From: Janibacter sp. A1S7
GTDB lineage: Bacteria; Actinomycetota; Actinomycetes; Actinomycetales; Dermatophilaceae
Direction of reading: 5' to 3'
NCBI RefSeq assembly: GCF_037198315.1
Contig: NZ_CP144913.1
Coordinates: 124,001 to 188,000 of the forward strand
DNA: 64,000 bases
Shown one piece after another: positions 2,684 to 64,000 of the stretch. How positions within the stretch are numbered: the stretch's first letter is position 1; each line of letters starts with the position of its first letter. A model generated the notes under the pieces. The model ran no database searches. It was not told where the DNA came from and saw nothing but the letters and a program-made list of their open reading frames with translations. The position numbers and the translations under genes were made by a program.

Positions 2684-2712
2684 GGCGAAGGGGGGGACAT
2701 CCCCCCTTCGCC
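2684..2712. repeat. 12-bp perfect inverted repeat made of two CGAAGGGGG motifs
   Basis: Left arm GGCGAAGGGGGG and right arm CCCCCCTTCGCC are separated by 5 bp. It lies between two divergent genes (acyl-CoA ligase start 2584, sensor kinase start 2765), so it is not at a normal terminator position. It may be an operator, or one of the dispersed motif pairs described in the findings. Confidence 0.75.
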
Positions 2713-2764
2713 TTGGGGGAGAACTCGGCAGACCCGGCCGTCACCGGCTGCGAGAGTTGTCCTC

Positions 2765-4063
2765 GTGACCACGCAGACGATGAATCCACCACTGGAGCGG
2801 CTGGAGCGGCCGAGCCTCGGGCGACGCTGGCTCGCCGGCTGGGGGAGTGTCCTGCTGCTCGTGACGAGCGTGCTGACCTCCTTCGGGGCCTTCGTGCTGA
2901 CCATCGCGATCGTCAGCGCCGCCGTGCTGATCACCGTCGGGGGCCTGGGTCTGCTGCTGCTCATCCCGCTCGTCTGGCTGGCCGGTGTGCTCGGCCACGG
3001 GGAGCGCCACCGGATCGTCGCGCTCTCCGGTCGGCGGGTCCATCCGCCGGCGCGGCGTGACCAGCCGCTGTGGCGGCGGCTGCTCCTCGACGAGCACTCC
3101 TGGCGCAGCGTGGCCTACTTCGTCCTGCACTCGATGTGGGGTGCCGTCACCGGGTGGATCGCCCTGACCGCGCTGGCCCAAGCACTGCTGCTCCTGCTGC
3201 TCCCCGCCTTCGCCGGCGGCATCCCGGACGAGGGGATCTCCCTCTTCGGCTTCCTCACCGTGGACGGGATCGTGGCGCTGTCCGTCGTGTGGGTGATCGC
3301 CGTCGTCACCGTCCTGCTGCTGCCACCCGTCGCCCATCTGGTGACCTCCGTCGACGTGATGCTCGCCCGGTGGCTGCTCGGCCGGGACGAGGGCAAGGTG
3401 CTCGAGCACCTCACCGCCCGCGTCGACACCCTCACCGACTCCCGCCGCGAGGCCGTGGACTCCGTCGAGACCGAGCGCCGCCGGATCGAGCGGGACCTGC
3501 ACGACGGGCCGCAGCAGCGCCTGGTCTCCATCGCGATGACCCTCGGCATGGCCCAGCAGGCAATCCACGAGGACCCGCAGACCGCGGCCGGGCTCGTGGA
3601 CGAGGCACACCGCTCGGCCAAGGAGGCCATCGTCGAGATGCGCCACGTCGCCCGCGGGATCGTCCCCCCGATCCTCGCCGACCGTGGCCTGGAGGCCGCG
3701 CTGCCCGCGCTCGCCGCCCGCTCCGCGGTCCCGGTGTCCGTGGACGTGCGCGACGTGGGCCGGCTCGACCCGACGACCGAGGCGATCGCGTACTTCGTCG
3801 TCAGCGAGGCGCTGACCAATGTCGCCAAGCACTCCGGTGCCGGGCGGGCCCACGTGGGCGTCACCCGCGACGAGCAGCACCTGACGACGATCGTCACCGA
3901 CGACGGCCGGGGCGACGCCGATCCGGCCCGCGGTACCGGCCTGACCGGGCTGCGCCAGCGGGTCAGCGCCGTTGACGGTGCCCTCCAGGTCGACTCCCCA
4001 CCCGGGGGAGGGACTCGTCTGACCGCAACCCTCCCCCTTCGCACCGGACGGAGCCTGTCATGA
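2765..4063 (+). CDS. Sensor histidine kinase (NarL-type two-component system)
   Basis: Protein of 432 aa in the inner membrane. The N-terminal half has about four hydrophobic segments in two groups (near residues 25-75 and 120-200). A HisKA_3 dimerisation segment follows, with the phosphoacceptor in ERRRIERDLHDG (His246). The HATPase domain carries the N-box SEALTNVAKHSGAG and glycine box TDDGRGDAD...GTGLTGLRQR. The GTG start at 2765 is the first in frame. The stop overlaps the response-regulator start as ATGA, so the two are translationally coupled. The signal sensed is unknown; the third gene of the operon encodes a DUF4097 protein, which suggests an envelope-related role (inference). Confidence 0.92.
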   Translation: MTTQTMNPPLERLERPSLGRRWLAGWGSVLLLVTSVLTSFGAFVLTIAIVSAAVLITVGGLGLLLLIPLVWLAGVLGHGERHRIVALSGRRVHPPARRDQPLWRRLLLDEHSWRSVAYFVLHSMWGAVTGWIALTALAQALLLLLLPAFAGGIPDEGISLFGFLTVDGIVALSVVWVIAVVTVLLLPPVAHLVTSVDVMLARWLLGRDEGKVLEHLTARVDTLTDSRREAVDSVETERRRIERDLHDGPQQRLVSIAMTLGMAQQAIHEDPQTAAGLVDEAHRSAKEAIVEMRHVARGIVPPILADRGLEAALPALAARSAVPVSVDVRDVGRLDPTTEAIAYFVVSEALTNVAKHSGAGRAHVGVTRDEQHLTTIVTDDGRGDADPARGTGLTGLRQRVSAVDGALQVDSPPGGGTRLTATLPLRTGRSLS

Positions 4064-4731
4064 GCGACCGGACCACCCCCACCAAGGTCGTGCTGGCCGA
4101 GGACTCGGTCCTGCTGCGCGACGGCATCGTGCGGCTGCTGACCTCGGCGGGCTTCGAGGTGGCGGCCGCGTGCCCCGACGCGCAGACCTTCCTGGCCGCC
4201 GTCGAGGAGCACGGCCCCGACCTCGTCGTCGTCGACGTGCGGATGCCCCCGACCTTCACCTCCGAGGGCATCGTCGCCGCGCTGCGGGTCCGCGAGAGCC
4301 ACCCCGAGACCGCCGTCATGGTGCTCAGCCAGTACGTCGAGGAGCAGTACGCCACCGAGCTCGTGGCCTCCCGGTCGAAGGGGGTGGGCTACCTCCTCAA
4401 GGACCGCGTCGCCGACACGAGTGACTTCATCGCCGCCGTGCGGGACGTCGCCGGCGGCGGCACCGTCCTCGACCCCGAGGTCGTCACCCAGCTGCTCACG
4501 CGGGCCCGACACGCCGACCCGCTCGCGGCGCTCACCCCGCGCGAGCGGGACGTGCTCGACCTGATGGCCCAGGGCCGGACGAACTCCGCGATCGCCACCG
4601 AGCTCTTCGTCTCCCACGGTGCGGTCGAGAAGCACGTGACCTCGATCTTCACCAAGCTCGACCTGCCGCCCGCCGAGGGTGACCACCGCCGGGTGCTCGC
4701 CGTGCTCCGCTGGCTCGACCAGGAGGACTGA
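4060..4731 (+). CDS. LuxR/NarL-family response regulator
   Basis: Protein of 223 aa. The receiver domain has the acidic pocket and phosphoacceptor Asp59 in VVVDVRMPPTF, and the conserved Lys in GYLLKDRV. The C-terminal LuxR-type helix-turn-helix (LTPRERDVLDLMAQGRTNSA, then HGAVEKHVTSIFTKL) spans roughly residues 150-215. It overlaps the upstream kinase by 4 bp and is 3 bp from the next gene. It should act as a DNA-binding output partner of the 2765-4063 kinase. Confidence 0.94.
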   Translation: MSDRTTPTKVVLAEDSVLLRDGIVRLLTSAGFEVAAACPDAQTFLAAVEEHGPDLVVVDVRMPPTFTSEGIVAALRVRESHPETAVMVLSQYVEEQYATELVASRSKGVGYLLKDRVADTSDFIAAVRDVAGGGTVLDPEVVTQLLTRARHADPLAALTPRERDVLDLMAQGRTNSAIATELFVSHGAVEKHVTSIFTKLDLPPAEGDHRRVLAVLRWLDQED

Positions 4732-4734: not shown

Positions 4735-5583
4735 ATGACCCAGACCCCGACACCCATCCCTCCCGGCGTGCCACAGGACCCGGAGCTGCGCGAGCGGTAC
4801 CTCCTCGATGCCGAGCGGGCCCGGCAGGACAAGCGCTCCGAGTCGGCCCGGATGGCCGCGGAGGTCCCCCCTTCGCGCACACCGTCCGGCCCGATCTGGG
4901 TGGTCGCGGCACTGGTGTCCCTGGTCCTGGTGGTGGGCACCGGCGCGGCCCTGGCCGGACCCATGCTCAGGCAGAGCGAGGCGACCGAGCGTCCGCTTCC
5001 GGTGGCGCTCTCCCGGGTGGAGGTGGGCAACGGCACCGGTGACGTGCGCGTGCGCGTCGCCGAGCCCGGTGAGCGCCCGGCGGTCACCTCCACGGTCGAG
5101 TGGGGGCTGCGCAGGCCCACGACCCGCATCGACGTCTCCGGCAGCACGGCGGCGCTGCACGGCGAGTGCCCGAACGGCTTCATCACGGTGTGCAGCACGG
5201 ACTGGCTGGTCGTCGTCCCGGCCGGCACTGCCATCGACATCAGTCAGGGCCTCGGCGGCGTCACGGTCGAGGGACCGCGCGGTGAGCTCGACATCGAGGC
5301 GGGCGTCGGGGACATCGAGATCACCGAAGCGCAGTCGCAGCAGATCGACGTGCGGACGGGCGTCGGGTCCGTGCGGATCGAGTCGGTGGAACCACCGCAG
5401 GTCCTGCAGGCCTCCGTCGGAGTGGGCGACCTGACGGCTCGCCTGCCGGGGACCGCCACCTACGACATGGACACCGACGTCGGGACCGGCGAGGTCAGCA
5501 ACACGCTCGGTAGTACCCCGGGAGCGGACCATCGGGCCCACCTGGAGGTCGGCGTCGGCGAGATGAACGTCGCCGGCTCCTGA
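4735..5583 (+). CDS. Membrane-anchored DUF4097 (beta-strand repeat) protein
   Basis: Protein of 282 aa. A charged cytoplasmic N-terminus of about 58 residues precedes one transmembrane helix (about 59-84, IWVVAALVSLVLVVGTG). The outer region is built of repeated short beta strands of the type VGNGTGDVRV, AGVGDIEI, TGVGSVRI, VGVGDL and TDVGTGEV. This is the DUF4097 putative-adhesin fold, common beside LiaF/PspC-type envelope stress systems. It starts 3 bp after the response regulator and is the third gene of the operon. It may be a signal partner or target of the two-component system. Confidence 0.8.
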   Translation: MTQTPTPIPPGVPQDPELRERYLLDAERARQDKRSESARMAAEVPPSRTPSGPIWVVAALVSLVLVVGTGAALAGPMLRQSEATERPLPVALSRVEVGNGTGDVRVRVAEPGERPAVTSTVEWGLRRPTTRIDVSGSTAALHGECPNGFITVCSTDWLVVVPAGTAIDISQGLGGVTVEGPRGELDIEAGVGDIEITEAQSQQIDVRTGVGSVRIESVEPPQVLQASVGVGDLTARLPGTATYDMDTDVGTGEVSNTLGSTPGADHRAHLEVGVGEMNVAGS

Positions 5584-7037: not shown

Positions 7038-8106
7038 CGCGTCGCTCCGCAGGTGCGATCCCGAGGGCCTGGCGCATCTGCTCCAGCATCGTGTAGCCGT
7101 CCGCCGCATGGCAGATCGGTAGCTGGACCCCGACGTGCTGCTCGTAGGCGTCGGTCGCGATCGGGGTGAAGTGGCTCAGCAGCTGCTCGGTCGCGGACAG
7201 CACCCGGATACCGATCGCCCGCACGCGGTCGGGACGCTGCTCGGCGAACTCGCCGTAGATGCTCGGGTCGTGCTGCCCGTCGTCACCGATGAGCACCCAC
7301 CTCACCTCGGGCAGCTCGCGCGCCAGCCGGTGCAGGCAGGCGCGCTTGTGGTCCTGGCCCGAGCGGAACCAGCCGGTGTTGGTCGGACCCCAGTCGGTCA
7401 TGAGCATCGGTCCGAGCGGGTAGCCGGCCCGACGCAGGAACCGGGTCAGCGGTGGCACGGCGTTCCACGCGCCCGTCGAGACGTAGATGATCGGCGCGTT
7501 CGGGTGCTCCCGCAGCAGCTCGCGGTACATCGTCGCCATGCCCGGCACGGCCCGGCGGGTGCCCTCGTGACGGAAGAAGGTGTTGTACGCGGCGATCATC
7601 GGCCGCGGCATCGTCGTGGTGATGATGGTGTCGTCGATGTCGGAGACGATGCCGAAGGTCTCCTGCGGGTCGACGATGAAGACCGCCGCCGTCGTGTCCG
7701 CGGCCCGGGGCGAGGAGACGTGCAGGTGGTGCCAGCCCGGCGCCAGGTCGTGGCCGGTGATCGTCAGGTCGAGGATGCCCGACCGGTCCACGCGGGTCCG
7801 GAACTCCTTCTCCCCGACGGTCACGGTGACCGGCTCGCCACTGGCCGGGGTGGCGAAGAAGAAGCGCCACCCCCTTCGCTCGTTGTCGGCGGTCCGCAGC
7901 TCCAGCCAGGTCGCCCGCGCATCGGCCGCGGCGGGCGCGTAGGGGCGGCGGGTCATCAGGACCCGGCCGAGGACGCGGACCCGGTCGACGCTGCCGTATC
8001 CGGTGTGGGCGAGCACGCGTGTGCCCCAACCACGGCGACGCATGGCGCCCGCCACTTGGCGGTGCCAGGCGTCCTCGATGATCGCGGCGAAGTGCGGTCT
8101 CGGCAT
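7030..8106 (-). CDS. App1-family phosphatidate phosphatase-like protein (DUF2183)
   Basis: Protein of 358 aa. The HAD-type catalytic motif SDIDDTIITTTM lies near residues 150-162, in the App1/DUF2183 arrangement. An N-terminal beta-rich region (about 40-140) precedes it. FIVDPQETFGIV comes just before the motif, and YVSTGAWN and VLIGDDGQHDPSIY carry later HAD motifs. Family members dephosphorylate phosphatidate or similar lipids; bacterial substrates are mostly unproven. A TAGGCT -10-like hexamer lies 7 bp before the ATG, suggesting a leaderless transcript. It is the first gene of the App1-nei operon and divergent from the gene at 8135. Confidence 0.85.
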   Translation of the reverse strand: MPRPHFAAIIEDAWHRQVAGAMRRRGWGTRVLAHTGYGSVDRVRVLGRVLMTRRPYAPAAADARATWLELRTADNERRGWRFFFATPASGEPVTVTVGEKEFRTRVDRSGILDLTITGHDLAPGWHHLHVSSPRAADTTAAVFIVDPQETFGIVSDIDDTIITTTMPRPMIAAYNTFFRHEGTRRAVPGMATMYRELLREHPNAPIIYVSTGAWNAVPPLTRFLRRAGYPLGPMLMTDWGPTNTGWFRSGQDHKRACLHRLARELPEVRWVLIGDDGQHDPSIYGEFAEQRPDRVRAIGIRVLSATEQLLSHFTPIATDAYEQHVGVQLPICHAADGYTMLEQMRQALGIAPAERRDA

Positions 8107-8134: not shown

Positions 8135-9280
8135 GTGAGTGACCCGACGAAGGGGGAGGTCCGTCACCTCGACATGGTGTCGATGGGGTGCCGGTGGGTG
8201 CTCGACGTGTCCGAGCTCGACGAGGCCCCTGCCGCGGAGACCGCCGCCCGGTGGCGGCGGTGCATCGACTTGGCCGGCCGGAGCACACCGATCCTCGACG
8301 ACGAGCCGCAGACGGTCCGCGCCACGGCCACCCGACAGTCCTACGACCTCTCCCGCGAGCTGACCCGCACGGGCCTGGTGCGACTGCGCGGCCGGGTCAC
8401 CCTCCTGCACGCGGCGGCGCTCGCCGACGACTCGGGGCGTGCGCTCGCCCTCGTCGCCCCCTCGGGCGGCGGCAAGTCGACCGCCACGCGGGTCCTCGGC
8501 CGAGCGTTGGGGTACCTCTCGGACGAGACACTCGTGCTCCTCGAGGACCACGCGATCGCCCCCCACCCCAAACCGCCCTCCCTGGTCGTCGACCCGGCCG
8601 ACCGCTGGCGCAAGCACGAGCCGTCGCCGGACGAGCTCGGACTCGGCCCGACGCCCGGGCACGCCCGGCTGGCACGGCTGCTCACCCTCGATCGCGACAC
8701 GGACGTCACCGAGCCGTCCATCGAGCCGGTCGGCCTGATCGACCAGCTCCTCGCGGTGCTGCCCGAGACCTCCTCGGCCTGGCTGGTGCCGGACGGCCTG
8801 GACCGGCTGGCCCGCGCGGTCACCGTCGGCGGGGCACCGGCTCGGATGCGTTACGCCGAGGTCGACACCTGCCACGACCTGGTGCGCGAGCACCTGGCAG
8901 CGCCCGGGACGGCGCCACCGATCTGGGAGCACCTGCCGCCCGACGCGACGGAGCAACTGACCACAGAGCAGGTCACCGGCGCGGACCCGGCGACCTCGCA
9001 GGTGAGCGGCGCCGACCTGGACGGGGCGGACCGCCTGGTGCGGGCGCCGTGGTCGGATGCCATCGCGCACGACGGCGAGGTGCTCGTGCTGGCCGGGCCG
9101 CGCCCCCTTCGTCTGGCCGGCGCCGGGGCCGCCCTCTGGCTGGGTGCCCGCCCCGGGCACACCCTCGACGAGCTCACCGACGTGGTCGTCGCCGAGCTCG
9201 GGGAGCACCCCGACAGCGGCGCCCTCGTCCGCGCCGCGGCCGCTGACCTGCTGCGCCACGGGGTGCTCGCGCTAGCGTGA
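8135..9280 (+). CDS. ATP-binding protein with HPr-kinase-like P-loop and PqqD-like C-terminus
   Basis: Protein of 381 aa. A P-loop, VAPSGGGKST, lies near residues 107-116. It is followed by GYLSDETLVLLEDHAIAPHPKP, which resembles the HPr kinase/phosphorylase fold seen in many non-HPr proteins of peptide-modification loci. The last 75 residues (PRPLRLAGAGAALW to VRAAAADLLRHGVLAL) look like a PqqD/winged-helix peptide-binding domain. The GTG start at 8135 is chosen because GGGAGG lies just upstream and the coding signal begins there; the frame itself is open to 8003. No precursor peptide or modification enzyme is adjacent, so its partner is unknown. Function not assigned. Confidence 0.7.
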   Translation: MSDPTKGEVRHLDMVSMGCRWVLDVSELDEAPAAETAARWRRCIDLAGRSTPILDDEPQTVRATATRQSYDLSRELTRTGLVRLRGRVTLLHAAALADDSGRALALVAPSGGGKSTATRVLGRALGYLSDETLVLLEDHAIAPHPKPPSLVVDPADRWRKHEPSPDELGLGPTPGHARLARLLTLDRDTDVTEPSIEPVGLIDQLLAVLPETSSAWLVPDGLDRLARAVTVGGAPARMRYAEVDTCHDLVREHLAAPGTAPPIWEHLPPDATEQLTTEQVTGADPATSQVSGADLDGADRLVRAPWSDAIAHDGEVLVLAGPRPLRLAGAGAALWLGARPGHTLDELTDVVVAELGEHPDSGALVRAAAADLLRHGVLALA

Positions 9281-9706: not shown

Positions 9707-10063
9707 TCAGCCCTGGACGAAGGGGGCGACCCGCTCCTTCGGGCGGCCGATGATCGCCCGGTCGTCCTTGACGATGACGGGCCGCTGCATCAGGCGGGGG
9801 TGCTCGACGAGCACGGCGACGACTTGGTCGACCGTGGCGACGTCAGCGTCGGTCAGGCCCTGGTCCTTGAAGAAGGAATCCCGGCGCACGAGGTCGCTCG
9901 GCTCGTCCTCGAGCTTGCCGATCAGCTCGCGCAGGGCCGCCTCGTCGAGGGGCTCCTTGAGGTACTGGACGACCTCCGCCTGCGCGCCGGACGCGTCGAG
10001 GGTCTCGAGGGCGGAGCGGGAGGTCGAGCACTTCGGGTTGTGCAGCACGGTGAGGTCACTCAT
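9707..10063 (-). CDS. ArsC-family reductase (glutaredoxin-type arsenate reductase)
   Basis: Protein of 118 aa. The active-site segment HNPKCSTSR puts the catalytic Cys at position 12. RPVIVKDDRAIIGRPKERV near the C-terminus carries the conserved Arg region of plasmid R773-type ArsC. That family reduces arsenate to arsenite with glutaredoxin, though chromosomal copies such as YffB-type can have other roles. No ars transporter or regulator is nearby. ATG 10063 is preferred over an in-frame GTG 9 bp upstream, because a TACCGT hexamer lies 7 bp before the ATG. Confidence 0.88.
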   Translation of the reverse strand: MSDLTVLHNPKCSTSRSALETLDASGAQAEVVQYLKEPLDEAALRELIGKLEDEPSDLVRRDSFFKDQGLTDADVATVDQVVAVLVEHPRLMQRPVIVKDDRAIIGRPKERVAPFVQG

Positions 10064-10083: not shown

Positions 10084-11448
10084 CTACCGGGCCTGATAGA
10101 CCGTGACCGTCTCCTCACCGGCGGCGCCCGCGCTGATCACGGCGAAGCGCTCGGCGGTCCCGGACGGGTCGAGCGCCTTGATGACCCGCACACCGTCCCA
10201 CTGGCCGTCGACCGACCACGCCTGCTCGCCCGTCTCGGGATCGAGCGCGGTGAGGCCGTCCTCGTCGGCGACGAGGAGGTGCTCGCCGTCGCAGGAGATG
10301 GCCGCGTCGCCCGAGAGGGGGCGCTGCCACAGCTCGCTGCCGTCGTCGAGCGCTCGCATGGACACCGCGTGCGCCGACTCGTCCTCGGTCAGGGCGACGG
10401 CGCCACCACACACACTGCTCAGTGCCGTGCCGGCGGGGACGGTCCACAGCGGCTCCTCGTCCACGTCCCCGGCCGGGAGCATCTTGGTGCGGCCGGCGTC
10501 GAGCAGGAAGCGGTAGTCCGCAGCGCTGCCGTCGTCGACGAAGGAGTGCACGGACTCGCTGAGCCCGGTGAGCGCGTCGGCGTTGTCGGCGGACATCGTG
10601 ACGCGATCGCCGGTCTCCGCGGACAGGGCGAAGGGCTCACCGTCCTGCGAGGTCACGTGGGTGATGACGATCTGGTCGCCCAGGCGGTAGGTCTCGCTGA
10701 GGATCCCGTTGCCGATGCTGGCGGGGGACTGGTGGTGCCAGACGATCGACCCGTCGGCGGCGATCTGTGCGGCGTGCACCGAGGCCGTCCGGGTCCTGGC
10801 GTCGTCCTCCTGGACGAGGACGCTCACGTGGTAGGCGTCGCCGCGACGCTCCGCGCTCATCCCGACGATGCTCGACTCCTCGGGGGCGGGTGCCTCGACG
10901 AAGGGGGCTCGCGCGACCTGCTCACCGTTCTCCGCCGAGATGGTGCGGAAGGCGTACTGGCCGGGCCCCGTCTCGACGCAGACCAGCGACTCGGCGCTCC
11001 CGCCCAAGCAGATCTCGCCGGCGTCGGCCTGTCCCGGCGGGACTGGCGCGGAGTTCGACCACGCCGTCGTGCCGGTGGTCAGATCGAGCGCGGTGCGGAA
11101 GGCGTGGCGGCCCTCCCTGCTGTTGCTCCCGACCGTCCCTTCGGCCACGACGGTGTCGGTGCTCAGCGGTCGCCAGGTGACCACGCACGCCGACTCTCGG
11201 CACTCACCCCGCGGGTCCATCTCGGCAACGGGGAGGGTGAACAGCTCCTTGGGGGCACTGCCCATCGACGCCAGCAGGTCGTGGGTCGGCGGGCGGCCGG
11301 TGTCGCGGATCGCATCCACGCGCTCCTGCGCCTGCACTGCCTGCTCACCCTGCGGCGCGGGCTCGTCAGCACCGACGAGGCTGCACCCGGTGAGGACGCC
11401 GACGGCCAGGACAGCGCCGATCGCGCGGATCCGCGATGTGTGCGTCAT
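10084..11448 (-). CDS. Lipoprotein with PQQ-like beta-propeller
   Basis: Protein of 454 aa. The N-terminal signal peptide ends in the lipobox LTGC, so Cys22 would be lipidated and the protein anchored outside the membrane. The rest shows repeated propeller-like strands (GSIVWHHQSP, GSELWQRPLSG, GLTALDPETGEQAWSVDG) like PQQ/outer-membrane-assembly-type repeats. No catalytic motif is visible. It is 20 bp upstream of the ArsC gene and 38 bp downstream of xth on the same strand. Likely a binding or scaffolding protein; function unknown. Confidence 0.8.
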   Translation of the reverse strand: MTHTSRIRAIGAVLAVGVLTGCSLVGADEPAPQGEQAVQAQERVDAIRDTGRPPTHDLLASMGSAPKELFTLPVAEMDPRGECRESACVVTWRPLSTDTVVAEGTVGSNSREGRHAFRTALDLTTGTTAWSNSAPVPPGQADAGEICLGGSAESLVCVETGPGQYAFRTISAENGEQVARAPFVEAPAPEESSIVGMSAERRGDAYHVSVLVQEDDARTRTASVHAAQIAADGSIVWHHQSPASIGNGILSETYRLGDQIVITHVTSQDGEPFALSAETGDRVTMSADNADALTGLSESVHSFVDDGSAADYRFLLDAGRTKMLPAGDVDEEPLWTVPAGTALSSVCGGAVALTEDESAHAVSMRALDDGSELWQRPLSGDAAISCDGEHLLVADEDGLTALDPETGEQAWSVDGQWDGVRVIKALDPSGTAERFAVISAGAAGEETVTVYQAR

Positions 11449-11486: not shown

Positions 11487-12413
11487 TCAGGCGTCGGCGT
11501 AGTCGACGACGACGGCCGCGTGGTCGCTGACCCGCGTGTCAGCGCTGGCCGGTCGATCTGTCCCGGCGGTCACCGCACGCGTGGCCAGCGACGGCGTCGC
11601 CAGGTGGTAGTCGATCCGCCAGCCGGTGTCCCGGTCGAAGGCGCCACCCATCCACGACCACCATGACATCGGGCCGTCCGCGTCGGGGTGCACGCGCCGC
11701 ACGACGTCCACGAGCGTGCGCGGCGAGGTGATCGAGGAGAACCACTCCCGCTCCTCGGGCAGGAAACCCTCGGACTTGGCGTTCCCCCGCCAGTTGGTCA
11801 GGTCCTGACGGGTGTGGGCGACGTTGAGGTCGCCCAGGAGCAGGAACTCCCGGCCGGCTGCCTTCGCTGCCTTGCGGGAGCGGTCGAGCTGCCGGGCGAA
11901 CGAGGCGAGGAAAGCCATCTTGCGGTCGTACTTCGCTCCGCCGTCGGGCTGCTCACGACCACCCGGCTTCTGCAGGTGGGCCGGCAGACCCCCCTTCGGC
12001 AGGTAGAGCGAGGCGACGGTCACCGGCGGGGAGTGCGGAGTCGACACCAGGTCGACTTCCACGTACCTCCCCTCGGAGGCGAAGGGGGAGAGCCCTCGCG
12101 CCATCGTCCCGGGCGGGGAGGGCTCACGGTGGGTGTGCTCCTCGCCGGGCGCACGCATCAGCACCTCGCCGTCCCAGGTGCGCACCGCGGCAGGACGCTC
12201 GCGGGTGAGCACGGCGACACCGTTGCGCCCGGCGACGTGACCGGGCTCGTAGGTCAGGTGGTACCCGCCGAAGACGCCCTCCGGCAGCTTGTCCGGGGAG
12301 CAGCGGACCTCCTGCAGGGCGACGACGTCCGGGTCCCGCTCGGCGAGCCAGGACTCGAAGCCGCGGCGCTGCGCCGCCCGGATGCCGTTGACGTTGAAGG
12401 TGGCGACGCGCAT
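11487..12413 (-). CDS. xth: Exodeoxyribonuclease III
   Basis: Protein of 308 aa of the endonuclease/exonuclease/phosphatase fold, an apurinic/apyrimidinic endonuclease and 3'-5' exonuclease of base-excision repair. Visible motifs are NVNGIRAA at the N-terminus, LQEVRCSPDKLP with the metal-binding Glu, LLLGDLNVAHTRQDL (Asp and Asn), WRIDYHLATPSL and the terminal SDHAAVVVDY with the catalytic His. It begins 10 bp after the GNAT stop and is likely co-transcribed with it. About 30-40 aa longer than Escherichia coli ExoIII. Confidence 0.94.
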   Translation of the reverse strand: MRVATFNVNGIRAAQRRGFESWLAERDPDVVALQEVRCSPDKLPEGVFGGYHLTYEPGHVAGRNGVAVLTRERPAAVRTWDGEVLMRAPGEEHTHREPSPPGTMARGLSPFASEGRYVEVDLVSTPHSPPVTVASLYLPKGGLPAHLQKPGGREQPDGGAKYDRKMAFLASFARQLDRSRKAAKAAGREFLLLGDLNVAHTRQDLTNWRGNAKSEGFLPEEREWFSSITSPRTLVDVVRRVHPDADGPMSWWSWMGGAFDRDTGWRIDYHLATPSLATRAVTAGTDRPASADTRVSDHAAVVVDYADA

Positions 12414-22875: not shown

Positions 22876-23490
22876 ATGGCGACGCAGATCATCGATCGAT
22901 TCGACGGCAGGATCCTCGGGGCCGGGTCGACGAGCGGTCTGCGACTGGTCATCGGTGACTGGTGGCGCACGCCGCTGGGCGCCTTCAGCGGCGTCATGAT
23001 CGCCACGGCGGACCACCGGCGCGTCCTGCTCGCGATCAACGAGCGGGTGGCCGAGTACGTCAGTGCCACCTACTCCTTCGACGAGGTCGTGCTCACGCCG
23101 GTGACGGTGACCGAGCGCGACGGTGGCGCCCGGTGGGAGGTCGACGCCGGCCCCCTTCGCGCCAGTGTCGGCCTCGGGGGCCGTACCGGTGTCGGGCGTC
23201 TCCTGCGGCTGCTGCCCGGCCCGCTCGCGCGCAGTCGGGCCTTCGCCACGCTGGCCGACCCGGTCGCCCGCCGGGTCTTCCCCGGGGTGCGCACGCGCGG
23301 CAGCGCCGGCAACGGGCGTCGGGAGTACTACGGCGCTCGGGACCAGCGCGCGGTCACCCGGCTCAGCGGTACCTGGCACGGCGTCGAGCTCGGAGCGCTC
23401 GCGGACGTGGCGCCGCCCCCGCAGTTCGGCTTCAGCTCCACCCCGGTGCGACCGAGCCTGACCGAGGTGACGACGACCGTGGTGCGGTAG
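22876..23490 (+). CDS. Conserved hypothetical protein
   Basis: Protein of 204 aa. I recognise no named domain. The sequence is soluble-looking with no signal or membrane helix: IIDRFDGRILGAGSTSGLRL at the start, then VIGDWWRTPLGAFSGVMIAT, and an Arg-rich, probably basic C-terminal half. ATG 22876 follows TTGGAT by 7 bp. It is divergent from ohrR and starts 33 bp from the OhrR operator, so it may share redox control. Confidence 0.65.
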   Translation: MATQIIDRFDGRILGAGSTSGLRLVIGDWWRTPLGAFSGVMIATADHRRVLLAINERVAEYVSATYSFDEVVLTPVTVTERDGGARWEVDAGPLRASVGLGGRTGVGRLLRLLPGPLARSRAFATLADPVARRVFPGVRTRGSAGNGRREYYGARDQRAVTRLSGTWHGVELGALADVAPPPQFGFSSTPVRPSLTEVTTTVVR

Positions 23491-33746: not shown

Positions 33747-33776
33747 CGAAGGGGGTGGCCACGGCCACCCCCTTCG
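33747..33776. terminator. 14-bp bidirectional hairpin from two CGAAGGGGG motifs
   Basis: CGAAGGGGGTGGCC and GGCCACCCCCTTCG are perfect complements separated by 2 bp. It sits in the 64-bp gap between two convergent genes and so probably terminates both. Confidence 0.8.
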
Positions 33777-50840: not shown

Positions 50841-50894
50841 GGCGAAGGGGGAGGGTGACCGCGGGAAAATCCGTTGCCGGCCCCCCTTCGCCCT
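50841..50894. repeat. Widely spaced facing pair of CGAAGGGGG motifs
   Basis: GGGCGAAGGGGG (50841-50852) and CCCCCTTCGCCC (50883-50894) are 12-bp perfect complements 30 bp apart, with an AT-rich interval (GGGAAAATCC). It lies in the purA-DUF5302 gap, 66 bp after purA, and may be the purA terminator. Confidence 0.6.
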
Positions 50895-55692: not shown

Positions 55693-56649
55693 ATGACGAG
55701 TGACGCTCCCCTCGACCTGCCCGGCCACGCCCACCTCTACTCGGGCAAGGTGCGCGATCTGTACGCGCCGCTGGGGCAGGACGGGACGCCTCGGGAGGAC
55801 CAGCTGCTGCTGGTCGCCAGCGACCGGATGTCGGCCTACGACTTCGTGCTCGACACCCCGATCCCCGACAAGGGCGCGGTGCTGACGCAGATGTCGTTGT
55901 GGTGGTTCGAGCAGGTTGCCGACCTCGTGCCGCACCACGTCGTCTCCACCGAGGTGCCCGGTGCCGTCGCCGGCCGGGCCGTCCTCGTCGAGCGCCTCGA
56001 CATGCTCCCCGTGGAGTGCGTCGCCCGCGCCTACCTCACCGGCGGCGGCCTGAACGAGTACCGCTCCACCGGCGCGGTCAGCGGGATCGACCTGCCCGAG
56101 GGCCTCGTCGACGGGTCCCGCCTGCCGGCACCGATCTTCACCCCGTCCACCAAGGCGCCCGCCGGCGAGCACGACGAGCCGATCCCCTTCGCCGGGGTCG
56201 TCGACGAGGTCGGCCAGGCGCTCGCCGAGCGCGCCCGCGACCTCACCGTGGCGATCCTGCAGCGCGGCAACGGGATCGCCACCGAGCGCGGGATCATCCT
56301 CGCCGACACCAAGGTCGAGTTCGGCCTGCGCGGCCTCGAGCTGGGCGACGGGGAGGACCCGGGTGCCGCGATCCGCTCCCGGGGGGCGGATGCCGAGATC
56401 GTCCTGGCGGACGAGCTGCTCACGCCGGACTCCTCACGCTTCTGGCCGGTCGACCAGTGGGAGCCGGGTCGGCAGCAGCCGAGCTTCGACAAGCAGTTCG
56501 TCCGCGACTGGCTGACCTCCCCCGCGAGCGGGTGGGACAAGGGCTCCGGTGAGGCGCCCCCTTCGCTCCCGGAGGACGTCGTCGAGCAGACCCGTGCGAA
56601 GTACGTCGAGGCCTACGAGCGGCTCACGGGGCAGACCTTCGCCGCCTGA
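55693..56649 (+). CDS. purC: Phosphoribosylaminoimidazole-succinocarboxamide synthase
   Basis: Protein of 318 aa, making SAICAR from CAIR and aspartate. YSGKVRDLYAPLGQDG is the ATP-binding start, LLVASDRMSAYDFVLDTPIPDKG is characteristic, CVARAYLTGGGLNEYRSTG and the C-terminal DSSRFWPVDQW with FDKQFVRDWL complete it. ATG 55693 lies 6 bp after GAAGAT. Its stop is 4 bp before a 76-bp structured repeat. Confidence 0.96.
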   Translation: MTSDAPLDLPGHAHLYSGKVRDLYAPLGQDGTPREDQLLLVASDRMSAYDFVLDTPIPDKGAVLTQMSLWWFEQVADLVPHHVVSTEVPGAVAGRAVLVERLDMLPVECVARAYLTGGGLNEYRSTGAVSGIDLPEGLVDGSRLPAPIFTPSTKAPAGEHDEPIPFAGVVDEVGQALAERARDLTVAILQRGNGIATERGIILADTKVEFGLRGLELGDGEDPGAAIRSRGADAEIVLADELLTPDSSRFWPVDQWEPGRQQPSFDKQFVRDWLTSPASGWDKGSGEAPPSLPEDVVEQTRAKYVEAYERLTGQTFAA

Positions 56650-56772: not shown

Positions 56773-58326
56773 ATGTCGACGAGGACGCAGATGGCCACCG
56801 CCCGCGCGAACGGACTGGGGGAGGTGCTGCGTCGCAGCGCAGCCCGCTTCCGGGACAGGGCCGCGATCATCGACGGGGAGACCCGCCTGAGCTATCGCGA
56901 GTTCGACGACCTGTGCACGCGCGTCGCCGCCGGCCTGGCCGGTCACGGGATCAACCCCGGTGATCGCGTGGCGCTGCTCAGCCGAAACTCCGCGGACTTC
57001 GCCGCCATCGCCTGGGGCGCCGCGCGTCTCGGCGTCATCCTCGTGCCGATCAACTTCATGCTCACCGCCGACGAAGTCGGCTACATCGTCGGACACAGCG
57101 AGCCGGTCGCCTTCCTCACGCAGCCGGAGTTCGTGGACACCGCCACCGAGGCCATCGCCGCGAGCGGTCGGGCGGTGCCCACGCTCATCGTCACCGGGGA
57201 GGCGAAGGGGGAGTGGGCCCCCTTCGCCGACCTCGCCGCAACCGACCCGACCGGCTGGACCCCGCCGGTCATCGCCGACGACGACCCGATCCGCCTGATG
57301 TACACCTCCGGCACCGAGTCCCGCCCCAAGGGCGCGCTGCTGACCTCACGCGCCCTGCAGGCCGAGTACCTCAGCGCGATCATCGACGGCGGGATGACCG
57401 GCGACGACATCGACCTGCACACCCTGCCGCTCTACCACTGCGCCCAGCTGGACTGCTTCCTCGGCCCGGACCTGATGCTCGGCGCGACGAGCATCATCCT
57501 GCCCGCGCCGGACCCGGCGACCGTGCTCGCGACGATCGCCGAGCACCGGGTGACGAAGTACTTCGCGCCGCCGACGGTGTGGATCTCGCTGCTGCGCCAC
57601 CCGGACTTCGACGCCACCGACCTGTCGAGCCTGCGCAAGGGCTACTACGGCGCCTCGCCGATGCCGGTGGAGGTCCTGGGGGAGATCCAGCAGCGCCTGC
57701 CGGACGTGGACCTGTGGAACTTCTACGGCCAGACCGAGCTGGCGCCGGTCGCGACGATCCTGCCGCCGCACGAGCAGCTGACCCACGCGGGGTCGGCCGG
57801 ATTCCCGGTGCTCAACGTCGAGACCCGCCTCGTCGACGACGACGGCGTCGAGGTCCCTGTCGGCGAGATCGGGGAGGTCGTCCACCGCAGCCCGCAGATC
57901 GCCGCCGGCTACTGGCGCGACGGGGAGAAGACCGCGGAAGCCTTCCGGGGTGGCTGGTTCCACTCCGGGGACCTGGCGATCGCGGACGAGGACGGCCGGA
58001 TCACGATCGTCGACCGCAAGAAGGACATGATCAAGTCCGGTGGGGAGAACGTCGCCTCCCGCGAGGTCGAGGAGGCGATCTACGCCCACCCGGACGTCGC
58101 CGAGGTCGCGGTCTTCGCGCTGCCCGACCCGAAGTGGGTCGAGGCGGTCACCGCGACCGTCGTCGCCAAGGAGGGCTCGGAGCTGACGGTCGCCGCGATC
58201 GAGGAGCACTGCGCCGGGGTGCTCGCGCCCTTCAAACGGCCCAAGCGGATCGAGATCGTCGCCGAGCTGCCGAAGAACCCCAGCGGCAAGATCCTCAAGC
58301 GTCAGCTGCGGGAGCAGCTCAGCTGA
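56773..58326 (+). CDS. AMP-binding acyl-CoA ligase (FadD-like)
   Basis: Protein of 517 aa. The P-loop reads MYTSGTESRPKGALLTSRAL near residue 175. WNFYGQTELAPVATIL is the adenylation core, WFHSGDLAIADEDGRITIVDRKKDM the hinge, and PKNPSGKILKRQL carries the C-terminal catalytic Lys. This resembles medium or long-chain fatty-acyl-CoA ligases. CAGACT lies 6 bp before ATG 56773 (leaderless). A facing motif pair at 57201-57228 encodes EAKGEWAPFADLA. Confidence 0.92.
   Translation: MSTRTQMATARANGLGEVLRRSAARFRDRAAIIDGETRLSYREFDDLCTRVAAGLAGHGINPGDRVALLSRNSADFAAIAWGAARLGVILVPINFMLTADEVGYIVGHSEPVAFLTQPEFVDTATEAIAASGRAVPTLIVTGEAKGEWAPFADLAATDPTGWTPPVIADDDPIRLMYTSGTESRPKGALLTSRALQAEYLSAIIDGGMTGDDIDLHTLPLYHCAQLDCFLGPDLMLGATSIILPAPDPATVLATIAEHRVTKYFAPPTVWISLLRHPDFDATDLSSLRKGYYGASPMPVEVLGEIQQRLPDVDLWNFYGQTELAPVATILPPHEQLTHAGSAGFPVLNVETRLVDDDGVEVPVGEIGEVVHRSPQIAAGYWRDGEKTAEAFRGGWFHSGDLAIADEDGRITIVDRKKDMIKSGGENVASREVEEAIYAHPDVAEVAVFALPDPKWVEAVTATVVAKEGSELTVAAIEEHCAGVLAPFKRPKRIEIVAELPKNPSGKILKRQLREQLS
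57201..57228. repeat. 11-bp motif palindrome inside the acyl-CoA ligase gene
   Basis: GGCGAAGGGGG and CCCCCTTCGCC are exact complements, separated by 6 bp, in frame within the coding region. It is the second in-gene perfect pair after the one at 44538. Confidence 0.8.
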
Positions 58327-58327: not shown

Positions 58328-58867
58328 ATGCCCGCCTACGTCGCCTTCCTGCGCGCCATCAACCTCGGCGCCAAGCGGAAGTTCCCCAAGGCCGACCTGC
58401 AGCGCGTCGCCGAGTCGGTCGGCACCGGTGTGCAGGTGCACCTCAACACCGGCAACGTGCTGCTGACGAGCCGACAGCGCTCGTCCGCCGCGGTGGCGCG
58501 CACCCTCGAGGAGGCATTCGTGGCAGACCGAGGCTTCGAGGTGCCCACGATCGTGCTCGCCCTCCCGGAGCTGGGCCGGGTCGTGGCCGATGCCGAGGAG
58601 GTGGCGGGGCAGGCCCCCTTCGCCGTCGGGGCGCACTACGTCTCCTTCCTCAAGGAGGAGCCGAGCGCGGAGGCGCTCGCGGCCTTCACCGCACGGGAGG
58701 CGAAGGGGGAGAGCGCCGTGGTCCGCGGCGCCACCGTGCACCTCCTGGTCGCCGAGGGCGGGGCATACCACTCCGCGAAGCTCCCCGGTCGCGTCGAGAA
58801 GGACCTGGGCGCAGCCACCAATCGCAACCTCACCGTCGTCGCCGAGCTCGCCCGGCGCTGGGGCTGA
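58328..58867 (+). CDS. DUF1697 protein
   Basis: Protein of 179 aa. MPAYVAFLRAINLGAKRKFP and HLNTGNVLLTSRQRSS are the DUF1697 signature. Function is unknown. It begins 1 bp after the ligase stop, so it is cotranscribed with it. A motif copy encodes AKGE in the middle. Confidence 0.87.
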   Translation: MPAYVAFLRAINLGAKRKFPKADLQRVAESVGTGVQVHLNTGNVLLTSRQRSSAAVARTLEEAFVADRGFEVPTIVLALPELGRVVADAEEVAGQAPFAVGAHYVSFLKEEPSAEALAAFTAREAKGESAVVRGATVHLLVAEGGAYHSAKLPGRVEKDLGAATNRNLTVVAELARRWG

Positions 58868-58941: not shown

Positions 58942-60000
58942 TCACGCGGGACGGCGGCCGTAGGTCACCGCGTGCACCGGACTCAGCCGGAACCACCCCA
59001 TGTCGGTGAATCCGTGCCGGGTCAGCAGTTCGTCGTAGGCGGACCGAGGCAGGAGCTGGTCGTCGATCTGGGCCTCGAAGAACTGCACCCCGGACATCAG
59101 TTGGCCCGGCACGGAGCGCAGCCCCTCGTCGCTGTCCGGGAAGGGGAAGTCGGAGATGACGAACCAGCCGCCCGGCTTCAGCGCTGCCAGCACTCGGTCG
59201 GTGACCCGGTCGATGTCGCGGCACTCGTGCATCGAGATGTTGTTGATGACGACGTCCACCGGCTCCTCGAGCGTCATCTCCTCGAGCGGGCTGACCAGGA
59301 GCTCGACGCGGTCGCAGAGACCGGCGACCTCAACCGCGGACCCGGCCCGCTCGATGGAGTGGGCGTCACCGTCCACGCCCACGACGCTCGCCCGCGGGTA
59401 GGCCCTCGCCAGCCGGACCACGCCGGCCCCGGACCCGCAGGCGGTGTCCAGGACGCGGCCACCGGTGCGCAGGACGTCCTCCACCCCGGGCACCTGCGCC
59501 AGCCCGGCGGTGAGTAGGCGCGTGTAGAACGGCCGACCCGTACCCTCGACGCAGGCGATCCACCCGGGGCTCGTCTCGTCCCACCACATCCGCTCGCCGG
59601 TGGTCAGGGTGTCGGCGAACCGCCCGAACATCTCGTACTGGCCCACCGTTGCGACCATGGCGCCGAGATGGGCGGGCGAGTCCTCGTCGAAGAGCAGGGT
59701 CTCCACGTGCGCAGCCAACGCGTAGCCCCCTTCGTGCCGCTCCAGCACGCCGGCGCCGAAGGCGGCCCGGCACCAGACGGCCACGTACAGGTCGTCCATG
59801 CCGAGCCGCTCCGCCAGCTCGTCGGGTGTCAGCGATGGCGTGGTGGCAATGCCGCGCAGCAGCCCCGACTCCAGCCCCACCTGGATCACGCGGGTCGCCA
59901 TGTACCCGGCGAGGTGCCCCAGCAGCGTCCCTGCCTGCTCCGGCAGCGTCGGCGCGTCGTCCCCGGTATTCGTCGGTGTCGTCGATCCTGTGGTTGTCAT
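58942..60000 (-). CDS. SAM-dependent O-methyltransferase-like protein
   Basis: Protein of 352 aa. The N-terminal helical region (LPEQAGTLLGHLAGYMATRV to ERLGMDDLYVAVWCRAAFGA) looks like the winged-helix dimerisation domain of plant-type O-methyltransferases. The Rossmann domain has motif I VLDTACGSGAGVVRLA, VVGVDGDAHSIERA and PVDVVINNISMHEC. ATG 60000 has AAGGGA upstream. It is divergent from the HxlR regulator, which probably controls it. Substrate unknown. Confidence 0.85.
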   Translation of the reverse strand: MTTTGSTTPTNTGDDAPTLPEQAGTLLGHLAGYMATRVIQVGLESGLLRGIATTPSLTPDELAERLGMDDLYVAVWCRAAFGAGVLERHEGGYALAAHVETLLFDEDSPAHLGAMVATVGQYEMFGRFADTLTTGERMWWDETSPGWIACVEGTGRPFYTRLLTAGLAQVPGVEDVLRTGGRVLDTACGSGAGVVRLARAYPRASVVGVDGDAHSIERAGSAVEVAGLCDRVELLVSPLEEMTLEEPVDVVINNISMHECRDIDRVTDRVLAALKPGGWFVISDFPFPDSDEGLRSVPGQLMSGVQFFEAQIDDQLLPRSAYDELLTRHGFTDMGWFRLSPVHAVTYGRRPA

Positions 60001-60926: not shown

Positions 60927-60966
60927 CTCGGGCGGACCCACCCCCTTCGCCCTCAGGAGACACCCC

Positions 60967-61257
60967 GTGGGACGCATCGTCGTCGACGTCATGCTCAAGC
61001 CCGAGATCCTCGACCCCCAGGGGCAGGCCGTGCGCGGCGCGCTGCCGCGCCTGGGTCTGAACCAGTTCACCGACGTGCGGCAGGGCAAGCGTTTTGTCCT
61101 GTCCGTCGACGGCCCGGTCACCGAGGCGCACCTGACCAGCGCTCGCGAGGCCGCCGAGACCCTGCTGTCCAACCCGGTCATCGAGGACGTCGTCAACGTC
61201 CACGAGCTGACCTCGGACGAGCCGGAGCAGGCTCCGATCACCGGGGCGGGCGCGTGA
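60967..61257 (+). CDS. purS: Phosphoribosylformylglycinamidine synthase subunit PurS
   Basis: Protein of 96 aa, the small subunit that bridges PurL and PurQ for ammonia transfer. [20 protein letters not shown] and the C-terminal [13 protein letters not shown] match the family. GTG 60967 follows CAGGAGA. It overlaps purQ by 4 bp (GTGA). Confidence 0.95.
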
Positions 61258-61925
61258 AGATCGGCGTCATCACCTTCCCGGGCAGCCTCGACGACGCCGA
61301 CGCCCGCCGCGCCGTGCGCATCGCCGGCGGCGAGGCCGTGGCCCTCTGGCACGGCGACGCCGACCTCCGCGGCGTCGACGCCGTCGTCATCCCCGGCGGC
61401 TTCTCCTACGGCGACTACCTGCGCGCCGGGGCCATCGCCCGCTTCGCGCCGGTCATGGGCGAGGTCATCACGGCAGCGAAGGGGGGACTGCCGGTCCTGG
61501 GGATCTGCAACGGATTCCAGGTCCTCACCGAGTCCCACCTGCTGCCCGGTGCGATGATCCAGAACGACCACCGCAGGTTCCTCTGCCGCGACCAGGTCCT
61601 GCGCGTGGAGAACGCCGCGACCGCCTGGACCAGCGGGTACGAGTCCGACCAGGAGATCACCGTCGTGCTGAAGAACCAGGACGGACAGTTCGTCGCCGAC
61701 CGGGACACCCTGGATCGCCTCGAGGGGGAGGGGCGGGTCACCTTCCGCTACGTCGGGATCAACCCCAACGGCTCCGCCCGCGACATCGCCGGGATCAGCA
61801 ACGAGCGCGGCAATGTCGTCGGCCTCATGCCCCACCCCGAGCACGCCGTCGAGGAGGGCTTCGGCCCGGGCCTGGACGGACGCACCGTCTTCACGTCCGT
61901 CCTCGAGCAGGTGGTGTCCGCATGA
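61254..61925 (+). CDS. purQ: Phosphoribosylformylglycinamidine synthase subunit PurQ
   Basis: Protein of 223 aa, the glutaminase subunit. [20 protein letters not shown] is the oxyanion region, [14 protein letters not shown] holds the catalytic Cys, and [11 protein letters not shown] the His-Glu part of the triad. GTG 61254 overlaps purS. The stop overlaps purL (ATGA). Confidence 0.96.
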
Positions 61926-64000
61926 CCGAGCAGACCATGAGCACGCTGGACACCGTCACCCGGGCCGGCGCCACCCCGGACGCCGAGCAGCCGTGGGCAG
62001 ATCTGGGCCTCAAGCAGGACGAGTACGAGCGCATCCGCGACATCCTCGACCGCCGCCCGACCAGTGCCGAGCTGGCGATGTACTCGGTCATGTGGTCCGA
62101 GCACTGCAGCTACAAGTCCTCCAAGATCCACCTGAAGCGCTTCGGTGACCTGCCCAGCGAGACCCCGCTGGGCAGGACCCTCGCCGGGATCGGCGAGAAC
62201 GCCGGCGTCATCGACATCGGCCAGGGCTGGGCGGTGACCTTCAAGGTCGAGTCGCACAACCACCCGAGCTACGTCGAGCCCTACCAGGGTGCGGCCACCG
62301 GCATCGGCGGCATCGTCCGCGACATCATGGCGATGGGTGCCCGCCCGGTCGCGGTGATGGACCCCCTTCGCTTCGGGGCGATCGACCACCCGGACACCGC
62401 GCGGGTGCTGCCCGGCGTCGTCAAGGGCATCGGCGGCTACGGCAACTCCCTGGGTCTGCCCAACATCGGCGGCGAGGTCGTCTTCGACGACTGCTACCAG
62501 GGCAACCCGCTCGTCAATGCGCTGTGCGTCGGCAAGCTGCGCCACGAGGACCTCCACCTGGCCAACGCATCGGGCACCGGCAACAAGGTGATCCTCTTCG
62601 GCGCCAAGACCGGCGGCGACGGGATCGGCGGTGTCTCCGTGCTCGCCTCCGAGTCCTTCGACGAAGGGGGACCCACCAAGCGTCCCGCCGTCCAGGTCGG
62701 TGACCCCTTCGCCGAGAAGGTCCTGATCGAGTGCTGTCTCGACCTCTACGCCGCGGGCGTCGTCGAGGGTATCCAGGACCTGGGCGGTGGTGGCCTGTCC
62801 TGCGCCACCTCGGAGCTCGCCTCCGCCGGCGACGGCGGCATGCACGTCGAGCTCGACCGCGTCCCGCTGCGCGACTCCACGCTCTCCCCCGAGGAGATCC
62901 TCATGTCCGAGTCGCAGGAGCGGATGATGGCGATCGTCGCGCCCGACAAGCTCGACGCCTTCCTGTCGATCACCGGCCACTGGGACGTCGAGGCAGCCGT
63001 CCTCGGCGAAGTCACCGACGGCGACAACCTCGTCATCACCTGGCACGGCGAGACCATCGTCGACGTCGAGCCCGGCACCGTCGCCCACGAGGGCCCGGTC
63101 TACGACCGTCCGATCGCCCGGCCCGAGTGGCTCGACGCGGTTCGGGCCGACTCGAGCTCATCCCTTCCCCGTCCGGACGACCCGGGCGCCACCCTGCTCG
63201 ACCTGCTCGCCTCGCCCAACCTGTGCGACAAGTCCTGGGTCACCAACCAGTACGACCGCTACGTCCTGGGCAACACTAAGTCGGCCACGCCCCACGACTC
63301 CGGCGTCGTGCGCATCGACGAGGAGTCCGGGCTCGGCGTCGCGGTCTCCACGGACTGCAACGGCCGCTTCGGTCGGCTCGACCCCTACGCCGGGGCGCAG
63401 CTGGCCCTGGCCGAGTCCTACCGCAATGTCGCGACGTCCGGCGCCCTGCCCCTGGCCGTCACCGACTGCCTCAACTTCGGCTCGCCGGAGGACCCGGGCG
63501 TGATGTGGCAGTTCGAGCGGTCCGTGGCCGGTCTCTTCGACGCCTGCCTGGAGCTGGGGATCCCGGTCACCGGCGGCAACGTCTCCTTCTACAACCAGAC
63601 CGGGGACATCGCGATCCACCCGACCCCCGTGGTCGGGGTGCTCGGCGTCCTCGACGACGTGGCCACCTCGGTGCGTTCCGGCTTCGGCGAGAAGGGGGAG
63701 GTCGTCCTCCTTCTCGGGGAGACAAGGGACGAGCTCGACGGCGGCGAGTGGGCCAACGCCGTCCACGGCCACCTCGGCGGGCGACCGCCGAAGGTCGACC
63801 TGGCTGCGGAGAAGGCGCTCGCGGAGTTCTTCGTCGACGCCGTCCGTCGCGGGTTGCTGACCAGCTCGCACGACCTGTCCGACGGCGGCCTGGCGGTCGC
63901 CCTCGCGGAGTCCGTGCTCCACGGGGGCACCGGCGCCTCCCTCGACCTGTCCCCGGTCCTCGACCGGGACGGCATCGACGCCTTCACCGCGCTCTTCTCC
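61922..64000 (+). CDS. purL: Phosphoribosylformylglycinamidine synthase subunit PurL (3' truncated by window)
   Basis: At least 693 codons are present, about 90-95% of the usual 740-770, and the frame is open at the window end. [19 protein letters not shown] is the N-terminal signature, [20 protein letters not shown] the ATP site, and [20 protein letters not shown] and [17 protein letters not shown] later motifs. It makes FGAM from FGAR using ammonia from PurQ. ATG 61922 overlaps the purQ stop. Two motif copies fall inside (62362 as PLR, 62662 as EGGP). Confidence 0.97.

Follow-up and report, generated by a model that had tools for sequence, protein, structure and literature searches.

Introduction

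Strong preferences in DNA uptake are attributed to just two families, the Pasteurellaceae and the Neisseriaceae, in the introduction of PMC7811141. The DNA uptake sequence (DUS) of the Neisseriaceae is a 10-mer with about 1900 copies in Neisseria gonorrhoeae and N. meningitidis, and inverted DUS pairs are numerous in all dialect genomes (PMC3630211). In the Pasteurellaceae, the uptake signal sequence (USS) accumulates by molecular drive and is scarce both in coding sequence and in recently acquired segments (PMC7811141), and the uptake receptor is itself a prediction (PMC12616744). Micrococcus luteus can no longer be transformed when ComEC, or almost any gene of two tad clusters, is deleted (PMC4322843), and for mycobacteria no uptake sequence has been reported, according to PMC10526031. 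Here we analyze a 64,000-nucleotide stretch of the Janibacter sp. A1S7 genome (contig NZ_CP144913.1, positions 124001-188000; hereafter the window) and the nine-base word CGAAGGGGG, which recurs in it on both strands and which a preliminary description had likened to a DNA uptake sequence.

We propose that Janibacter and its sister genus probably use CGAAGGGGG, in its extended form GRCGAAGGGGG, as a DNA uptake sequence that works with a Tad-type competence pilus. The word resembles the DUS of the Neisseriaceae in being a non-palindromic word of 10 to 12 bases with roughly a thousand to several thousand copies, within and between genes, and in having terminator-linked inverted pairs and lineage dialects (PMC3630211). 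It differs in sequence from the neisserial AT-GCCGTCTGAA and lacks the 5'-CTG-3' core given in PMC3630211, and it occurs in a monoderm actinobacterium that has Tad-like clusters and in which no ComP-like receptor was found. Like the USS of the Pasteurellaceae, it is less dense in coding than in intergenic DNA; unlike it, it is a different word and has no conserved flanks. The combination of comEA/comEC and tad clusters in a high-G+C Gram-positive bacterium is shared with M. luteus (PMC4322843), although the term "uptake sequence" is absent from the searched text of that work and of PMC8467076. Among the papers listed in a literature search that left preprints and most subscription papers outside, none was seen to describe uptake words for actinobacteria.

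CGAAGGGGG is enriched across the chromosome of Janibacter and its sister genus

CGAAGGGGG occurs in the window as an exact match 50 times, with 21 copies on the plus strand and 29 on the minus strand. Dinucleotide shuffles of the window gave a mean of 0.87 copies (maximum 4 among 100 shuffles), and the order-4 Markov expectation is 2.83. The preliminary description had counted about 47 copies (20 and about 27 by strand); the strong excess that it saw stands, and the tally was low, with two of the copies, at 1888 and 2038, preceding the start of that reading and hence outside its range. Across the genome, a single contig of 3,360,916 bases, we counted 1359 copies (684 forward and 675 reverse). 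As a control, the same word read backwards occurs 29 times (17 and 12 by strand). The word is therefore chromosome-wide and not confined to the window, which at 0.78 copies per kb is about twice as dense as the genome average of 0.40 per kb.

In a 438-kb sample, composed of the window and 20 stretches spread over the chromosome, we found 185 copies, compared with 12.4 expected under the order-4 Markov model. Neither outcome that the preliminary description had named as refuting it, a count close to this model or confinement to one region, was therefore seen. We also ran the codon-preserving shuffle suggested in the preliminary description, with protein sequence and codon counts held fixed; genes were called with our own codon-usage script and no standard annotator. 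The sample has 138 coding copies, compared with 22.1 ± 4.3 in the synonymous-codon shuffles (maximum 31 in 100), so codon usage is no explanation for the word. The over-representation of CGAAGGGGG in both window and genome is thus confirmed. We note that one stretch, L027 (the first 20 kb of this contig, 65.5% G+C), has zero copies, with 8.1 expected at the genome mean.

We counted the word in 186 genomes of the family and in 361 sampled genomes from 18 further families of the order. All 16 Janibacter genomes (genus g1) have 797-1860 copies each, and all three genomes of the sister genus (g35) have 1317-1939 each. The remaining 167 family genomes have 11-80 copies, and the genomes of the other families have at most 101, the maximum being in an 8.3-Mb genome. 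A tree built from up to seven proteins encoded near comEA in 20 genomes, some proteins being missing in some, gave 100% support for Janibacter, for g35, and for the two together. G148, a genome with the word GTATGCCGY described below, branches next to this pair with support of just 59%. The best match to ComEC in the named genome collection was that of Janibacter limosus NBRC 16128 (77% identity), and identity inside g1 ranges from 63 to 89%; on this basis we take g1 to be Janibacter. As a side observation, GGGGGGGGGG has 22 counts within the 20 kb of stretch L089 of G092, reflecting an extended poly-G run that is either real or an assembly error.

The 27 one-base neighbors of CGAAGGGGG were counted in the 438-kb sample: 15 lie within twofold of expectation, six above, and six below. 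The highest ratio of observed to expected is 4.65. Of the six above, CGAAGGGAG has 41 copies versus 9.0 expected, CGAAAGGGG has 5 versus 1.1, CGAAGGGGT has 34 versus 12.6, and CGAACGGGG, CGAAGGGGA and GGAAGGGGG are each in 2.1- to 2.2-fold excess. A Shine-Dalgarno origin of the variant CGAAGGGAG was considered and rejected, as start codons account for only 4 of its 41 copies. The shorter strings AAGGGGG and CGAAGGG are likewise enriched. Together with the roughly 4.6-fold excess of CGAAGGGAG, this speaks for a word that arises by itself from composition, codon usage, or a bias in mutation or repair. However, the dinucleotide, Markov (12.4 versus 185) and synonymous-codon (22 versus 138) nulls rule out codon usage and composition as its source, and the other 167 genomes of the family have just 11-80 copies; we regard this explanation as highly improbable.

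Copies of CGAAGGGGG come and go mostly by substitution

We examined the bases flanking the word. In 46 of 50 window copies the base before the C is a purine, as the preliminary description had noted for most of them, and G is found at position -2 in 34 of 50. Among the 185 copies of the 438-kb sample, G at -2 carries 0.41 bits and purine at -1 carries 0.47 bits, and every other flank position from -12 to +20 carries 0.22 bits or less. These two preferences define the extended word GRCGAAGGGGG around the core CGAAGGGGG. Conservation among the copies is confined to positions -2 through +8, and the flanks are near background beyond, indicating that the word is not a copied element. Within proteins, the 138 coding copies are read as xKGx (46), xPFx (40), xPLR (22), xEGG (22), PPS (5) and RRG (3), which bears out the KG, PLR and PF readings proposed earlier. 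Density is 1.0 per kb in intergenic DNA versus 0.35 per kb in coding DNA.

The preliminary description had pictured the copies as if inserted in tolerated loops. We compared orthologous positions in 20 directed genome comparisons, with each genome pair counted both ways and with copies at edges or in unaligned DNA excluded. The alignment was gap-free across the word in 390 of 436 cases and gapped in 46; copies therefore mostly come and go by substitution and seldom look inserted. Among single changes, replacement of the eighth base, G, by A was the most common (13 cases), and its product is the most enriched neighbor among those with many copies. A dispersed repeat family (repetitive extragenic palindromic [REP] element or mini-transposon) with the word as its core would provide for the 14 inverted pairs described below, but the predominance of gap-free comparisons and the lack of anything clear shared by the 185 copies beyond -2 to +8 leave it next to no probability.

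We then compared the survival of CGAAGGGGG with that of words of the same composition (given in parentheses). From G000, the word is intact in 26 of 36 cases in G004 (49%), 16 of 23 in G005 (37%), 20 of 29 in G013 (44%), 11 of 21 in G009 (22%), 16 of 23 in G012 (24%), and 4 of 13 in G091 (16%). Conservation over background is clear in the closer pairs and weak in the deepest, to which we return below.

Orientation of the word is balanced with respect to replication and genes

Chi sites and FtsK-orienting polar sequences (KOPS) are short, over-represented, G-rich words that are skewed with replication, and a strong replichore skew also marks architecture-imparting sequences (AIMS). CGAAGGGGG is likewise short, over-represented and G-rich, but it is unskewed. 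Of the 10 stretches from the contig's first half, all but the window have positive GC skew; in the second half, 8 of 11 have negative skew. The contig start reads, from N-terminal sequences alone, as a pkn-pbpA-rodA-fha cluster, which usually sits near oriC. With oriC placed at the contig start, the leading- and lagging-strand counts of the word in the 438-kb sample are 93 and 92; forward and reverse counts are 51 and 57 in the first half of the contig and 35 and 42 in the second. Relative to the gene that contains them, 71 coding copies run with and 67 against. This balance argues against Chi and KOPS, and we rejected such a reading of the word on orientation.

Chi-like sites in a broader sense would be words read by a nuclease-helicase of recombination or repair, which switches to recombination on meeting them, with selection maintaining their frequency. 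A G-rich, non-palindromic, frequent and genome-wide word resembles known Chi sites, and conservation at orthologous places is equally expected of one. However, known Chi sites are oriented to replication, in contrast to the 93/92 split seen here; facing pairs after genes would be unexpected; and the change of the whole word between sister genera would demand a new enzyme specificity. We consider a Chi-like role quite unlikely. Binding sites of an abundant chromosome-organizing or segregation protein (KOPS, nucleoid protein or similar) would explain chromosome-wide spread and clade-specific words. Against this, KOPS-type signals are replichore-skewed, unlike the forward and reverse counts of CGAAGGGGG in the two halves of the contig, and single copies lie both ways within genes, with the exact word sharply required. 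This role, too, seems unlikely, and either one accounts for just some of the features of the word.

Facing pairs of CGAAGGGGG lie mostly 3' of genes

We defined a facing pair as two neighboring copies within 60 bp in opposed orientation. The 438-kb sample contains 14 facing pairs versus 2.3 under random placement (maximum 7 in 1000 trials), a model that ignores the higher intergenic density of the word. The G run is on the inside in all 14 (CGAAGGGGG...CCCCCTTCG). Three pairs are wholly inside genes; the other 11 lie in convergent (six), tandem (four) or divergent (one) gene spacing, and 10 of these 11 sit 3' of a gene.

Five of the facing pairs are in the window. The first (2686..2694 on the plus strand and 2702..2710 on the minus strand) is intergenic, between divergent genes; the second (33747..33755, plus; 33768..33776, minus) lies between convergent genes; and a third (50843..50851, plus; 50882..50890, minus) lies 68 bp after purA. 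The remaining two (44540..44548, plus, with 44552..44560, minus; and 57203..57211, plus, with 57218..57226, minus) are entirely inside called genes. The earlier suggestion that copies face each other as hairpins after genes thus holds for the existence of the pairs and for their 3' excess. A facing pair located after a gene could also form a terminator-like hairpin.

The pair after purA has a comparable counterpart in G004, and no facing pair was found in the DNA downstream of purA in G005, G013, G009, G012 and G001, indicating that facing pairs turn over. In the comEA region of nine Janibacter stretches from other species (173 kb) we found one facing pair, inside a gene, and in 60 kb of g35 we found two.

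Related genera carry other words

In an unbiased search of the comEA region of 20 genomes for over-represented words, CGAAGGGGG ranked first among 9-mers in 8 of the 12 Janibacter/g35 stretches. The top words in four of the eight other genera were forms of GTATGCCG[C/T], the top word in G178 was GGATGCCGG, and no outstanding word was found in the comEA region of the remaining three of the eight. Whole-genome counts in the 186 family genomes revealed strand-balanced enrichment of the word GTATGCCGY, with a maximum of 3538 copies in G166 (1736/1802 by strand, against 28/37 for the control). By our own count, the word is enriched in 32 of 53 family genera, a genus being included when one of its genomes or more has no fewer than 100 copies and exceeds its control fivefold or better; a two- to threefold excess was seen in three further genera, g3, g10 and g38. 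All 19 CGAAGGGGG-rich genomes of Janibacter and g35 have only 4-25 GTATGCCGY copies, which is background level, so the two words are mutually exclusive. Outside the family, GTATGCCGY stays near its control (maximum 93 copies, control 108; 80 versus 34 in G461). The word has also been lost within genera: G083 has 8 copies versus 2743 and 779 in its congeners G084 and G085, G023 has 23 versus 959 in its congener G024, and G113 has 36 versus at least 195 in the rest of g41.

A de novo word scan of ten family genomes with neither CGAAGGGGG nor GTATGCCGY gave a clear signal in G178 only. There, GGATGCCG[G/T] has 42 copies in 60 kb, 28 of them coding compared with 3.2 in codon shuffles. CGATGCGG in G082 (g31; stretches L098, L102, L103 and L139), with 55 copies in 74 kb, of which 54 are coding versus 14.4 in codon shuffles, is a weak possible dialect. 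No outstanding word was found in seven of the ten. G184 (g53; L108-L109), which has neither uptake-like word, carries a longer interspersed repeat around TAGGTGCGGA/GGTCGAGTAG, with about 15 copies in 40 kb on both strands, that is REP-like.

For the scan beyond the family, 16 of 20 stretches were used (four under 5 kb were dropped) and eight genomes were sampled deeper. G204 (family f18) has 49 copies of GGATGCCTCG in 120 kb versus 3.0 expected, 28/21 by strand and present in all six stretches; 47 of the 49 are coding, compared with 1.3 in codon shuffles. In 80 kb of G191 (family f7; L165 and L185-L187), CCGCCTCGGG has 19 copies versus 1.5 expected, 10/9 by strand, with 13 coding copies versus 1.9 in codon shuffles, and is possibly a further dialect or a terminator arm. 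The other six of the eight deeper-sampled genomes yielded no outstanding word. ATGCC is common to GGATGCCTCG, GTATGCCGY and the G178 word GGATGCCG[G/T]. ATGCCGT is found both in the relatives' GTATGCCGT and in the Neisseria 12-mer AT-GCCGTCTGAA, an overlap that may be due to chance, given so short a string.

Competence genes and a possible mechanism

The preliminary description had proposed a search for competence genes, and comEA, comEC and Tad-like clusters are all present. The genome encodes ComEC, and the adjoining gene encodes ComEA, with SLBB and helix-hairpin-helix domains. Five T2SSE ATPases score above the cut-off, and they sit in Tad-like clusters as judged from a reading of their neighbors, with a Pfam check for the L011 cluster only. 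We refer to the L011-type cluster as tad-2; a further tad ATPase is of the L010 type. We note two departures at this locus in relatives. In G178 (L136 698-1759, minus strand), a 353-residue tandem-repeat protein replaces flp/tadE/F/G after tadC. In G083 (L138), tadABC is retained, flp/tadE/F/G were not found there, and small unrelated genes stand instead; GTATGCCGY has 8 copies in this genome versus 779-2743 in its congeners.

From these comparisons, we envisage a competence DNA receptor, probably a Tad/Flp pilus component or ComEA, that would prefer double-stranded DNA bearing CGAAGGGGG. Such DNA would enter through ComEC and then recombine, and copies born by mutation would be spread and repaired via the biased uptake (molecular drive), accumulating both ways round at the sites that a protein tolerates. 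Related genera would use other words, namely GTATGCCGY in 32 genera, GGATGCCG[G/T] in one sampled genome, and GGATGCCTCG in one sampled genome of another family, and we infer that the receptor preference changed once, at the base of the clade formed by Janibacter and g35. Biased uptake with molecular drive would yield an exact word, strand neutrality, protein-tolerated placement and copies born by substitution; it would equally yield excess conservation, facing pairs, clade limits and exclusive dialects. The uptake reading first offered in the preliminary description gains support from the genome count, clade limits, codon null, strand balance, 3' facing pairs and the mutually exclusive words of sister genera.

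Several observations weigh against a DNA uptake sequence. ComEA was rejected as a discriminating gene because it is near-universal (180 of 186 family genomes), and the L010-type tad ATPase was rejected likewise (184 of 186). For tad-2, a close ATPase is lacking in six genera (g2, g12, g16, g27, g28 and g37), none of which carries either word, and 34 of the 47 genera with it have either word (P = 0.0012, an association that ignores kinship and is uncorrected for it). Sixteen genomes with intermediate best hits (1e-61 to 1e-117) were scored as having it, and tad-2 is retained in 13 genera that lack both CGAAGGGGG and GTATGCCGY. In addition, the word-rich genome G012 (1860 copies) has a broken cluster (L122 1137-6346), interrupted by an island that carries a cytosine-methylase gene and a Vsr gene, with tadA truncated to 276 residues and tadB-G not found at the locus. 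G092 (1939 copies) has no close tad-2 ATPase match, nor do G100 and G181, two incomplete genomes with the GTATGCCGY word. A recent loss of tad-2 may account for G012 and G092; as a simple determinant of the word, tad-2 was rejected, as both are word-rich without an intact or close copy. A search for dialect-specific residues in the tad-2 proteins gave one to three fixed columns each and no lead, and no sequence-specific DNA receptor emerged from the distribution of comEA and the L010-type tad ATPase or from the tad-2 comparison. A downstream gene encodes an AI-2E-family transporter (PF01594). By BLAST it is present in 8 of 9 Janibacter/g35 stretches and 0 of 12 others, a distribution that indicates synteny and no receptor.

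Other points against concern the copies themselves. In the deepest comparisons, CGAAGGGGG is intact in 4 of 23 cases from G000 to G001 (2.7 expected from identity; 12% for same-composition words) and in 8 of 24 from G090 to G091 (27%). For scarcity in mobile DNA there are two stretches to go by. One, L012, has integrase-core and T2SSE genes and a single copy versus 7.2 expected (P = 0.006). The other, L026 (FtsK-like and AAA_10 genes), has three versus 9.0, but it had been selected because the forward list showed a gap there and so does not count as a test. Facing pairs are scarce in other dialects, with four in 234 kb for GTATGCCGY and one in 120 kb of G204. Finally, our search for literature on natural competence in Janibacter surfaced a single paper, on fungal endosymbionts.

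More broadly, it appears likely that self-recognition by uptake sequence arose in monoderm Actinobacteria independently of the Neisseriaceae and Pasteurellaceae, using Tad/Flp pili. It would extend to the majority of genera in one family, in which three dialects or more are used (GTATGCCGY, CGAAGGGGG and GGATGCCG[G/T]), and to at least one more family (GGATGCCTCG), and the full switch at the Janibacter root would act as a gene-exchange barrier toward its relatives. If so, natural transformation is common and selective across a large actinobacterial group, and the word would offer a practical handle for transforming its members. The switch of dialect would be a natural experiment on how a competence receptor reads DNA, and would let molecular drive be weighed against selection.

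Positions of the remaining copies in the window

The copies outside facing pairs are given here as exact 9-mer matches, with positions in the 64-kb stretch. Intergenic copies are found at 17645..17653 and, directly after a gene, at 31457..31465 on the plus strand, and at 43394..43402, 45531..45539 and 60941..60949 on the minus strand. Within genes, copies on the minus strand lie at 1888..1896, 2038..2046, 4033..4041, 4867..4875, 7870..7878, 9103..9111, 11990..11998, 14769..14777, 20507..20515, 23151..23159, 25051..25059, 27073..27081, 29191..29199, 29838..29846, 36641..36649, 41018..41026, 54543..54551, 56557..56565, 58614..58622, 59726..59734 and 62362..62370. Those on the plus strand lie at 4376..4384, 8148..8156, 9718..9726, 10899..10907, 12080..12088, 15687..15695, 26546..26554, 28468..28476, 37551..37559, 39523..39531, 54282..54290, 58701..58709, 61477..61485 and 62662..62670.

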